In this document: positions 33,158 to 45,759 of the stretch, piece by piece | Position numbering within the stretch: position 1 is the stretch's first letter | Layout: every line of letters begins with the position of its first letter | Virus record (IMG/VR): IMGVR_UViG_3300030419_006746 | Location: 1-54,713 of that record | Strand: one strand, 5' to 3' | Origin: a virus | DNA length: 54,713 nucleotides | Program-made: the position numbers and the translations under genes | Notes under the pieces: generated by a model | What the model saw: only the letters and a program-made list of their open reading frames with translations | Told to the model about the DNA's origin: nothing | The model's database searches: none

Positions 33158-34735
33158 ATGAAACAATATACTAATTCTCAAACCCTTCGCCAAAGTTTGG
33201 AGGAGGGCATAAGGATTGTTGCTGAAAATGTAGCATCAACTCTTGGCCCAAAAGGGCGCACAGTTATTTTACATCAAAAAGGCAAAAATCCTATCACAAC
33301 AAAAGACGGTGTAACAGTTGCTAAATTTATTGATTTAGAGGACCCTTTCCAGAATACCGGCGCGCAGATTGTAAAACAAGCTGCGGAGAAAACTAATCAA
33401 GAAGCTGGCGACGGCACAACAACCACAACAGTATTGACTTATGCGATGTATCGCGAAGCACAAAAGTATTTGACTGCTGGCGCTCCTCCAGTTGAATTAA
33501 GGAAGGGAATGGAGTTGGCAATTGAACATCTTGTGGCGCAAATCGAAGATACAACTACTCCTATTAAGTCTATTGACGACGTGCAAAACATAGCGACAAT
33601 TGCAGCAAATGGCGATGAGGTTATTGGTAAACTTGTCGCCAAGGCTGTTGATCTTGCTGGTAAAGATGGCTCTGTAACAATTGAAGATGCACGTTCAGTT
33701 GAAACTAGTCTAGACCTTGTAGAAGGTTTCCGCTTTGATTCTGGATATTTAGCAACAGCTTTTATCAATGATGAACAAAGAGGGTTCGTCAAATACGATA
33801 ACCCAATTGTTATGGTTACAGATGAAAAAATAGAAACTGTTGAAGATATGTATCCAGCTCTTGAAATTGCTTCGCGCGAAGGAAGGCCTTTTGTTATTGT
33901 AGCTGAAAACATTGAAGGTCAAGCGCTAGCGGCGCTGATTATGAATGCTATGCGCGGGACAATGCGAGTATGCGGCATTAAAGCTCCAAAATATGGAGAA
34001 GAAAGAAGAAGCATTCTTAAGGATTTAGCTGTATCAGTTGGCGCGACTCTTGTTTCAAGAGAAATGGGAATTAAGTTACGAGATGTAAAGCTGACTCATT
34101 TTGGCGAAGTAAAAAAACTAGAAGTAACCAAGAATTTCACAACAATGGTCGGCGGAGCAGGAGATCTAGGTGAAATAGAAAAACAGATTGACAAGCTAAA
34201 GGCAATAATGCAAGATACTGATAGCTTGCACGAGTGCGAAAAGCTTCAAGAACGAATTACAAGGTTGGCTTCCGGTGTCTCTGTAATCCGAGTCGGTGGT
34301 GCCACTGAAATAGAAATGATTGAAAAACGCCACAGAATTGAAGATGCACTAGAATCAGTGCGTTCGGCACAGTTAGAGGGCATTCTCCCCGGCGGCGGCT
34401 CCTTCTTGGTGCAGCAATCTGTTGACTTGTTTGACAACGTAAAAGAGCAAACTTCAAATGAATGGCAAGAACTTGGTGTAAAAATTGTACAACAAGCAAT
34501 AAAAGAGCCGTTGCGCCAAATGTGTAAAAATGCTGGAGAATCAGCTGATTTGATTCTTGATCAAGTTGCACAAGAAGAGTTGAATTACGGGTATGACTTT
34601 AAGTTAAATGTAGTGGTAAATGTGTTTGATTCTGGCATTGTAGACCCTGCTAGAGTAACAAGATGTGCTCTTCAGAATGCTGTTTCGGTAGCGGGAACCC
34701 TTATTACTTCTAACTATGCTATTGTTGAACATTAA
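33158..34735 (+). CDS. groL: GroEL chaperonin
   Basis: 525 aa, full length (E. coli 548). Signature segments: S-T-L-G-P-K-G-R-T-V, T-K-D-G-V-T-V-A-K, A-G-D-G-T-T-T-T-T-V-L, P-V-E-L-R-K-G-M. The nucleotide-site Asp residues are in place. The C-terminal GGM tail is missing. It folds proteins in a 14-mer with a GroES cap; the phage GroES-like protein at 17909 may be its partner. Confidence 0.93.
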   Translation: MKQYTNSQTLRQSLEEGIRIVAENVASTLGPKGRTVILHQKGKNPITTKDGVTVAKFIDLEDPFQNTGAQIVKQAAEKTNQEAGDGTTTTTVLTYAMYREAQKYLTAGAPPVELRKGMELAIEHLVAQIEDTTTPIKSIDDVQNIATIAANGDEVIGKLVAKAVDLAGKDGSVTIEDARSVETSLDLVEGFRFDSGYLATAFINDEQRGFVKYDNPIVMVTDEKIETVEDMYPALEIASREGRPFVIVAENIEGQALAALIMNAMRGTMRVCGIKAPKYGEERRSILKDLAVSVGATLVSREMGIKLRDVKLTHFGEVKKLEVTKNFTTMVGGAGDLGEIEKQIDKLKAIMQDTDSLHECEKLQERITRLASGVSVIRVGGATEIEMIEKRHRIEDALESVRSAQLEGILPGGGSFLVQQSVDLFDNVKEQTSNEWQELGVKIVQQAIKEPLRQMCKNAGESADLILDQVAQEELNYGYDFKLNVVVNVFDSGIVDPARVTRCALQNAVSVAGTLITSNYAIVEH

Positions 34736-38799: not shown

Positions 38800-39028
38800 A
38801 ATAAGAGATTGCTTGTGGAACAATACCTGTTTCGATCGAGGCAAAGGAACAATAATTGAGATTGTTCCTTTTGACGAGCCAGACCCAGATAGCGATATAC
38901 AGCATTTAAATTATTATTGTGTGATTCGCTGGGACGAGCCATTAGACAGTTTTTCTGCCTGGTCTGAAGATTTACACATTAGCAAAGATTATTTGAATGA
39001 TATTGAGCTGTTGGAGTACGAAGAATGA
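38783..39028 (+). CDS. GDLV-family-like small protein (MRVGDRI variant)
   Basis: 81 aa. M-R-V-G-D-R-I-R-D, G-K-G-T-I-I-E-I-V, V-I-R-W, ending D-I-E-L-L-E-Y. The family layout is kept with 'GDRI' instead of 'GDLV'. ATGA overlap with the next copy. Confidence 0.6.
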   Translation: MRVGDRIRDCLWNNTCFDRGKGTIIEIVPFDEPDPDSDIQHLNYYCVIRWDEPLDSFSAWSEDLHISKDYLNDIELLEYEE

Positions 39029-42652: not shown

Positions 42653-43549
42653 TTGTTTAACATAAAATTATCTGATGGTCTGTCTTTTCTAGAAAACATT
42701 CCAGACAATTCCGTTGATTTAGTATTAACTGATCCGCCCTACATCACATCCAGAGAAACTGGTATGGATAAATGGGTGGATCACGTCAATAAGCAAGATG
42801 GCGAGAATGCCCAAAATGTAAAAACAGAACAAGAGTGGTTAAATTATAAAACAAGCGAAGAATGGTCGGCCTGGATGGATAGCGGCAATGTTGCTCAAGA
42901 AAAAAGGGAAAAGAAGCTAAAAGGATTAAGAAATAATTTTTTAAAGTATGGAAGCATTTATGGCAAAAGGTATGCAGTGAGAACCAATTATGGCGAATGG
43001 GACTCCAAGTTTACAATGGAAAAGCTGAATTTATTTATTAAGCACTTTTATCGTGTTCTTCGTCCTGGCGGAACTTGTATTGTTTTTTTTGATATTTGGA
43101 AATTGTCTTACCTGAAAGAACAACTTGAAGGTGCAAAGTTTAAACAATTGAGATTCATTGAGTGGATAAAGACAAATCCGCAGCCTTTGAATAGCAGCAT
43201 AAACTATCTTACCAATTGCAGAGAGATTGCACTTCTTGGTGTAAAAAAGGGAAGCCCAACTTTTAATAGTAAATATGATAATGCCATTTATGAATATCCG
43301 ATTCAAGGTGGCAAAGACAGGTTTCATCCAACGCAAAAGAGTCTGCCTTTGTTTGAGGAATTAGTCAAAAAACATTCAAATGAGGGAGACACCGTGTTGG
43401 ATTGTTTTTTAGGATCGGGGACTACCGCTGTTGCCGCCTTGAATTCAAATAGAAAATTTACTGGATGTGAACTGGACAAAGAATATTACACGAAAAGCTT
43501 GGAGAGAATAAATAAACACATACGAGAAGATAAAACACTTGACATTTAA
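42653..43549 (+). CDS. DNA methyltransferase (N6-adenine / N4-cytosine, beta class)
   Basis: 298 aa from the TTG located six bases after AGGAGGAG; a longer frame overlapping the nuclease was rejected. The catalytic T-D-P-P-Y (D27-Y30) comes first and the SAM-binding D-C-F-L-G-S-G-T-T last, with F-H-P-T-Q-K-S before it: the beta-class order. With the upstream nuclease-like gene it may form a restriction-modification pair, or protect phage DNA from host enzymes. Confidence 0.85.
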   Translation: MFNIKLSDGLSFLENIPDNSVDLVLTDPPYITSRETGMDKWVDHVNKQDGENAQNVKTEQEWLNYKTSEEWSAWMDSGNVAQEKREKKLKGLRNNFLKYGSIYGKRYAVRTNYGEWDSKFTMEKLNLFIKHFYRVLRPGGTCIVFFDIWKLSYLKEQLEGAKFKQLRFIEWIKTNPQPLNSSINYLTNCREIALLGVKKGSPTFNSKYDNAIYEYPIQGGKDRFHPTQKSLPLFEELVKKHSNEGDTVLDCFLGSGTTAVAALNSNRKFTGCELDKEYYTKSLERINKHIREDKTLDI

Positions 43550-43566
43550 ATAAAGTTTATTATAAT
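43539..43566 (+). promoter_or_regulatory. Sigma-70-type promoter for hsp20
   Basis: -35 TTGACA in the last codons of the methyltransferase, 16-bp spacer, -10 TATAAT. Predicted start about 43573. Confidence 0.8.
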
Positions 43567-43572
43567 ATAGAT

Positions 43573-43635
43573 ATCTTCATCATTGCCTTTTGGAATGGTG
43601 GAGATTTTACTTGCTTATTATAAGGAGAAAATACT
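43573..43635 (+). promoter_or_regulatory. Candidate ROSE-like RNA thermometer in the hsp20 leader
   Basis: The 63-nt leader folds into two hairpins. Hairpin I (43573-43605) has about 14 bp, one bulged G and a UUUU loop. Hairpin II pairs CTTGCTT (43610-43616) with the Shine-Dalgarno AAGGAG (43622-43627), leaving a bulged G. UUGCU opposite AGGA with a bulged G is the hallmark of ROSE thermometers, which melt on heating and control small heat-shock genes. Confidence 0.65.
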
Positions 43636-44070
43636 ATGAGCACAACACTTACAACTTATCGCCCAGGTCTGTTGGGCAGTCGCGTCTTTGATGACGTATT
43701 CGATTCATTCTTTGTTGATTTTCCGAGACATCTGAAACAATCAACACAAGGCTACCCAGTCGCTGATATTTATCGGGACGATAATGGAAACACTGTGATG
43801 GAATTTGCTTTGGCTGGATTTAACAAAGAGCAACTCTCAATCGACATTCGACCAGATAAAAGAAGTATCACGGTTTCTGCCAATACGGATGTTGATGAGG
43901 ATAGCAATGGCTTCAGAAGGATTGCGCGTCGAAATTTCACTAAAACTTACGTAAATTACGACAACAATCTTGACCTTTCGGAGGCAAAAGCATCCTTTGA
44001 AAATGGGCTGCTGACTGTGGTGGTACCTCCTCGCGCTGAACTACAGCCCGTTAAGATCGCCATTTCCTAA
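43636..44070 (+). CDS. Small heat-shock protein (Hsp20 / alpha-crystallin)
   Basis: 144 aa. Short N-terminal arm (F-D-D-V-F-D-S-F-F), then the alpha-crystallin domain with Y-P-V-A-D-I-Y, M-E-F-A-L-A-G-F, S-I-T-V-S-A and A-S-F-E-N-G-L-L-T-V-V-V-P. The C-terminal I-A-I motif for oligomer contacts is present. It holds unfolding proteins in solution. Single-gene unit: own promoter, thermometer-like leader and a strong terminator. Confidence 0.92.
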   Translation: MSTTLTTYRPGLLGSRVFDDVFDSFFVDFPRHLKQSTQGYPVADIYRDDNGNTVMEFALAGFNKEQLSIDIRPDKRSITVSANTDVDEDSNGFRRIARRNFTKTYVNYDNNLDLSEAKASFENGLLTVVVPPRAELQPVKIAIS

Positions 44071-44077
44071 ATGATTT

Positions 44078-44105
44078 GGGGCGGCTCCATCGCCGCCCCT
44101 TTTTT
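44078..44105 (+). terminator. Rho-independent terminator after hsp20
   Basis: GGGGCGGC-tccatc-GCCGCCCC, perfect 8-bp stem, followed by six T. Confidence 0.93.
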
Positions 44106-45180: not shown

Positions 45181-45759
45181 ATGCCGAATTATCCACCTAC
45201 AGTAATTGAACAAACAAATCACGGCGAACGTGCTTACGATATATACTCACGTTTATTGATGGAAAGAATTATATTTCTTGGAACTCCAATTAACGATAGT
45301 ATAGCAAATTCGATTATAGCACAACTTTTATTTCTTGACCAAGATTCAGATGACGATATTTTATTATATATTAATTCTCCAGGCGGTATCGTTACAGCTG
45401 GTTTAGGAATATTAGATACGATGGACCACGTTAAGTCTGATATATCAACTATTTGTATCGGGCAGGCAGCTTCAATGGGCGCTTTGCTTTTGTGTTCAGG
45501 AGAAAAGGGAAAACGAATGATTCTTCCAAATGCGCGAGTGCTTATACATCAACCTCTCGGTGGCGCTAGTGGTCAAGCTAGCGATATTGAAATCCAAGCA
45601 CACGAAATCGTGCGATTGAAAAACCGATTAAATAAAATAATGGCTGCAGCTACAGGAAAAACAGAAGAGCAAATCAGGATAGACACAGACCGCGACAACA
45701 TTATGAATGCTGAAGAAGCATTGGCCTACGGATTAGTCGATAAAATACTTTACAAATAA
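45181..45759 (+). CDS. clpP: ClpP-type serine protease
   Basis: 192 aa, full length. L-Y-I-N-S-P-G-G, the nucleophile in G-Q-A-A-S98-M-G-A, the His in L-I-H123-Q-P, and the Asp in D-T-D-R-D near residue 175. [11 protein letters not shown] ends the domain. It forms the proteolytic barrel served by Clp ATPases; no phage ClpX/ClpA is seen, so host ATPases may be used or diverted. Little propeptide. No obvious Shine-Dalgarno. Confidence 0.92.

Follow-up and report, generated by a model that had tools for sequence, protein, structure and literature searches.

A ROSE-like leader, and probable RNA thermometer, upstream of Hsp20 genes in aquatic phages

In a virus record of 54,713 bases, which was analyzed at full length and is called the window here, a 63-nt leader (43573-43635) lies between a promoter and an open reading frame for the small heat-shock protein Hsp20. 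This arrangement raises the question of whether the gene is governed by an RNA thermometer and, more broadly, whether RNA of their own might let phages detect heat or damaged protein directly. The first phage thermometer, that of lambda cIII, reportedly goes back to work done in 1989. About three such elements are now known (PMC11182007), namely lambda cIII, the fourU element of SPbeta blyA, which was described as only the second in a phage, and the added fourU element of Caudoviricetes sigma-70. These are likewise phage RNA thermometers, but they belong to other structural classes and precede other genes, none being ROSE-like and none residing on a chaperone gene (PMC11182007). A phage ROSE element was absent from the open-access literature searched. 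Covariation, conservation across more than 100 loci, and a match to the proven ibpA elements of Pseudomonas together support the presence of a ROSE-like element on the phage Hsp20 gene, and this short leader probably acts as a thermometer that gates translation by temperature.

Architecture and folding of the leader

An earlier note on this DNA had proposed that the gene is isolated by its own promoter and a strong terminator, and both are readily located on the + strand. Perfect consensus hexamers at -35 (TTGACA, 43539-43544) and -10 (TATAAT, 43561-43566), separated by a 16-nt spacer, constitute a sigma-70 promoter that matches 12 of 12 consensus positions and whose location predicts a +1 at about 43573. 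The reading frame (43636-44070, 144 amino acids; Pfam HSP20, E 2.9e-10; PHROG 432, Hsp20) begins with an ATG at 43636 and is followed by an intrinsic terminator (44078-44105) composed of an 8-bp all-GC stem (44078-44099) and a T tract.

The two hairpins described in that note, one of about 14 bp beginning at the predicted +1 and another that sequesters the Shine-Dalgarno (SD) sequence with a single bulged G, are also present on this strand. Hairpin I (43573-43605) starts at the predicted +1 and has 12 pairs, a bulged G43585, two further pairs (14 in all), and a UUUU loop. In hairpin II, the anti-SD strand CUUGCUU (43610-43616), which contains the ROSE motif UUGCU, pairs across an AUUAU loop with the SD sequence AAGGAG (43622-43627), leaving G43613 bulged adjacent to a U-G wobble. 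The tip of hairpin I, UUGCC...GGAA, is similar to this anti-SD/SD core. A role for the leader as an attenuator or terminator was rejected because no conserved U tract follows hairpin I.

Folding calculations must be read with care. The 88-nt region formed by the leader and the first 25 coding bases has a predicted energy of -20.5 kcal/mol (z -3.74), which none of 200 shuffled sequences equaled. When the first coding bases are included, the single-sequence fold favors a GCUUAU/AUGAGC pairing over hairpin II, but this start-codon pairing was rejected as a real switch because it is not conserved, many relatives beginning with ATGACT, ATGACA, or ATGAAT. Without the coding bases hairpin II dominates, its share being 0.93 at 10 C and 0.49 at 42 C. 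When 20 other genes of the window served as controls, the SD of the hsp20 leader was predicted to open with temperature no more than theirs, the control genes opening at least as much. Since the calculation neither distinguishes this leader from others in the window nor gives the same outcome irrespective of the fragment chosen, it was not counted as proof of thermosensing. Nearest-neighbor parameters make the isolated hairpin II of the window a weak helix, with energies of -3.1 kcal/mol at 20 C, -0.6 at 37 C, about 0 near 41 C, and 0.15 at 42 C.

Comparative evidence from phages and bacteria

The search with Rfam models that had been suggested earlier put ROSE_3 first among 4,227 families at the leader (E 0.024 for the whole library), with UUACU-GCU...AGGAG aligned onto the terminal hairpin of that family, but its 20.7 bits do not attain the family's gathering score of 43; ROSE_2 reaches 14 bits against a threshold of 65. 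The leader is therefore not filed as a member of ROSE_3 (RF02523) or ROSE_2 (RF01832). ROSE_3 is also the best family at the corresponding sites of phages Melnitz-3 (34.1 bits) and C48C1 (26.8 bits), both likewise below 43, and the ibpA leader of E. coli, used as a positive control, was recovered as ROSE_2 at 100 bits. Other matches at the leader, including freshwater-2, LhrC, and snoRNAs, have E-values of 1.6 or more and were set aside.

Relatives of the leader were then compared directly. When all leaders were aligned with MAFFT (A1, A2, and A3), the fast-changing arms of hairpin I were misplaced, and for this reason a gap-poor seed (A4) with a covariance model was used. The model, R1, was seeded from 13 other leaders, with the window excluded, and it matches the window at 43578-43628 (+) with 37.7 bits and an E-value of 2.9e-15, R1 E-values being rough owing to a short calibration; the next-best site in the window scores 8.8 bits. 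Nearly all of 39 IMG/VR loci, which were fetched via Hsp20 protein homology only, carry a promoter, a hairpin whose arms differ wholly between phages, and then (A)CUUGCUU...AAGGAG. R1 matches 33 of 37 protein-selected loci (the window and 36 others) at E<=1e-4, in every case directly before the Hsp20 ATG.

Covariation was evaluated in 53 leaders of phages selected by protein, and the figures should be viewed with the caution that the alignment was fitted to the structure and that its rows are related. Paired cells make up 95.9% of the total, compared with 77.8% in shuffled alignments and 54-64% when partners are slid; cells with double changes number 141 versus 45 in shuffles, and the covariation score is 0.488 versus 0.162. 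Both sides change at six of the eight hairpin I pairs, most of which show four to six pair types. The sequence of hairpin II hardly varies, and this hairpin is paired in 99.3% of cells, its wobble pair being U-G in 34 leaders and C-G in 17, with rare double changes at two of its pairs. Covariation support at hairpin II is limited, as most of this hairpin never varies.

The element is not restricted to loci selected by protein. The pattern ACTTGCTT-N2..8-AAGGAGAAA-N3..10-ATG matched at least 119 stretches in IMG/VR, and among the 119 matches listed, a profile search placed 99 upstream of Hsp20 and 8 upstream of DnaK, while several others are Hsp20 starts at a contig edge. The two motifs are found together in 92 of 124 Hsp20 leaders but in 1 of 551 other leaders of the same contigs, a comparison that is partly biased because many contigs were selected via the hairpin II pattern. 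In six contigs (L072, L074, L089, L124, L130, and L150), dnaK is followed by hsp20 and each gene has its own two-hairpin leader; judging by sequence, these represent a phage chaperone module with repeated ROSE-like elements that are putative thermometers. Three listed matches precede a small protein of no known function, the leader standing at L083:696-751, L129:1603-1650, and L140:1314-1368 before proteins of 69-85 amino acids (MFNSVIEAVQTAQKTF..., MFDYVIDYVQNSKKTA..., and MFKNFTPTFPELIMP...), which are possible further members of the regulon.

Named phages give a similar picture. A relative of the commoner phage Hsp20 occurs in 508 INPHARED records, and 24 leaders of named phages, chosen for their spread and not for their leader, were inspected. 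R1 matches the leader in 22 of the 24, although in HTVC115P over hairpin II only and weakly in Atu_ph07, PAC2, and ACG-2014f. The Phosso leader was added through inspection, and 23 of the 24 show a hairpin I with a bulged G together with the motif of the SD hairpin or a variant close to it. Vibrio phage PWH3a-P1 is the sole phage of this set without the element. The hosts of those that carry it are Synechococcus, Prochlorococcus, Pelagibacter, Methylophilales, Agrobacterium, Sinorhizobium, and Pseudomonas. Across entire phage genomes, R1 matches are almost confined to the hsp20 leader site. A second, weak match (13.8 bits, E 0.0024) lies away from hsp20 in S-CRM01 (HQ615693.1:79131-79177, - strand), and a second match in S-CAM9 (L290 1061-1102) was rejected as an element because it resembles a terminator hairpin. 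The C form CUCGCUU prevails in cyanophages (L281, L282, L287, L289, L290, L346-L348, and L351-L356), with the U form CUUGCUU elsewhere, and the C-type forms of hairpin II are predicted to be clearly more stable than the U form of the window.

The DNA polymerase III of the window shares about 30% identity or less with the best records listed, and by this measure its phage is far from all named phages examined. One class of element recurs before the hsp20 genes of varied aquatic phages, both cultured and uncultured, and before phage dnaK as well. The earlier note had regarded a thermometer in a phage gene as unusual, an expectation that does not hold for the element, which is the rule before the phage hsp20 genes examined. 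What is new is the presence of ROSE-like members in phages, an unexpected place, where they are far more widespread than that note supposed.

Bacteria carry related leaders. A genome scan with the same pattern yielded 25 hsp20 leaders among 119 matches listed for that scan, with SAR86, Polynucleobacter, and SAR11 contributing many of these leaders; genome matches outside Hsp20 and DnaK were dismissed as mostly due to chance. R1 matches 25 of 58 genomes of the order that contains a Pelagibacteraceae genome, and all five of the matches fetched from this order beyond the centre adjoin Hsp20. A scan of 30 cyanobacterial hsp20 loci with R1 found the element in none (best E 0.3), and weak whole-genome matches in 12 of 146 cyanobacterial genomes were put down to chance, since none of the 10 fetched is near an Hsp20 ORF. 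Because the element is missing from these cyanobacterial loci and present in some proteobacteria, cyanophages carry an element of proteobacterial type, a cis-element of a kind not seen at the hsp20 loci of their hosts. The best reading of these sequences is that the element is common to proteobacteria and phages. In an alphaproteobacterial metagenome-assembled genome (L198), both the model and the pattern match upstream of dnaK, which suggests that ROSE-like control of dnaK may extend beyond phages too.

Likeness to known thermometers and competing explanations

The ibpA leaders of P. putida and P. aeruginosa are proven two-hairpin thermometers of 62 and 61 nt, in which U(U/C)GCU lies opposite the SD; U38-G39-C40 face the SD, with U38 paired to G and G39 unpaired (PMC3669281). 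Melting is confined to hairpin II, with hairpin I remaining intact; U38C stabilizes the P. putida element, and deletion of G39 together with U38C locks the leader (PMC3669281). The phage leader shares with these RNAs the 5' UTR of about 62 nt, the stable hairpin I, the small heat-shock gene, and a hairpin II with U(U/C)GCU/SD pairing, a bulged G, and a U-G wobble. It differs from them in its occurrence in phages, where it is also found on dnaK, in an AT-rich and weaker hairpin II, and in the use of phage or host-type promoters, which are of the sigma-70 consensus in the window and TATAAATA-like in many T4-like relatives. By eye, the ibpA leader of E. coli (ROSE_2) likewise has a hairpin with a bulged G and a CC/GG tip.

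Structural traits that characterize ROSE-like elements (PMC3669281; PMC11182007) are found in the window, where the leader is the 5' UTR of a small heat-shock gene, has two hairpins (the class having two to four) with the SD in the last, and pairs U(U/C)GCU imperfectly with the SD, leaving a G bulged, with UUGCU and UCGCU variants among relatives. A further trait of the class is that melting of the SD hairpin raises translation on warming, a behavior proposed for the phage leader too. The suggestion that UUGCU facing the SD represents a ROSE core is supported by the sequence and the Pseudomonas ibpA match. A fourU assignment does not fit, as the SD lies opposite CUUGCUU and not UUUU. The cyanobacterium Synechocystis, a host of the sort infected by cyanophages, also has a thermometer on a small heat-shock gene, hsp17, but this element is a single short hairpin (PMC3669281); on the sequences compared, cyanophages do not carry the thermometer type of their hosts.

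The feature-by-feature match to the Pseudomonas ibpA leader is the basis for proposing temperature-gated translation. Transcription is predicted from the promoter to run from hairpin I onward. At low temperature, the SD would be held in the imperfect helix of hairpin II, with its UUGCU, U-G wobble, and bulged G, and little Hsp20 would be produced. On warming, hairpin II would melt while hairpin I stayed folded, so that the ribosome could bind and the holding chaperone be made. By this analogy, the leader is expected to melt with temperature and to control translation, and we infer that hairpin I has a stabilizing or folding role and that the arrangement benefits the phage.

Self-repression, whether alone or together with thermosensing, is a live rival suggested by IbpA of gamma-proteobacteria, which binds leaders of this type and represses itself (PMC10474464). 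In E. coli, IbpA binds the ibpA 5' UTR and represses its own translation, which makes it an aggregation sensor, and its R93 is essential, with even lysine being no substitute (PMC10474464). The phage leader might similarly be mainly a binding site at which free Hsp20 blocks translation until aggregates titrate the protein away, in which case the RNA would report protein aggregation, such as that accompanying virion protein synthesis, more than temperature. An arginine is aligned with R93 in 146 of 154 Hsp20 sequences, that of the window among them, and nearly all of these sequences are linked to such leaders. A bulged-G motif (YGCY/RGG) is common to both hairpins, as two binding sites might have, and can be seen by eye in E. 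coli ibpA too; temperature swings are also modest for marine hosts. However, a clade with lysine at this position (L052, L097, L131, L195, and L288) keeps the leader, and the element is found upstream of phage dnaK too; DnaK is not known to bind it, although Hsp20 could act there in trans. As the main function of the leader, self-repression is judged unlikely. The lysine-bearing clade would be useful for separating thermosensing from self-repression.

Still less probable is that hairpin I merely stabilizes the 5' end of the mRNA, the UUGCU-SD pairing being incidental and expression constitutive. Its position at +1 would suit such a role, given that 5' stem-loops can stabilize transcripts (PMC3669281), and the low predicted stability of hairpin II is compatible with it. 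But the arms of hairpin I vary freely whereas the anti-SD strand hardly changes, the U-G to C-G exchange and the double changes preserve pairing in hairpin II, and almost every leader, phage or bacterial, retains the bulged G and the motif. That the structure is misread or due to chance, and without function, finds an argument only in the ambiguous single-sequence fold; this notion has almost no likelihood and is already refuted by the comparative data, which include the independent-model E-value of 2.9e-15, the covariation, and the specificity for the gene. Temperature-gated translation through a ROSE-like hairpin II is accordingly the reading we prefer.

Wider meaning and neighboring genes

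The recurrence of this element makes it testable whether the timing of chaperone production in phages follows temperature or protein damage. It also provides many natural variants for studying the melting point of ROSE elements, for example UUGCU and UCGCU, which differ at the position of P. putida U38C. More speculatively, and less likely than not, aquatic phages as a group may carry a self-contained proteostasis circuit in which a ROSE leader, having a bulged-G motif in both hairpins, gates hsp20, and sometimes dnaK, and senses both temperature and free Hsp20, so that chaperone synthesis would track aggregation during virion production; in cyanophages this would be a proteobacterial-type circuit that the host itself lacks.

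The window also encodes GroEL (33158-34735; PHROG 5725, E 3e-138) as well as a ClpP-like protease (45181-45759), and neither gene has a ROSE-like leader. At least eight small paralogous ORFs whose products start with M(K/E)VGDLV are found on the + strand at 39025, 40441, 44324, 44505, 44727, 44979, 45784, and 46374, and they cluster around hsp20 and clpP.
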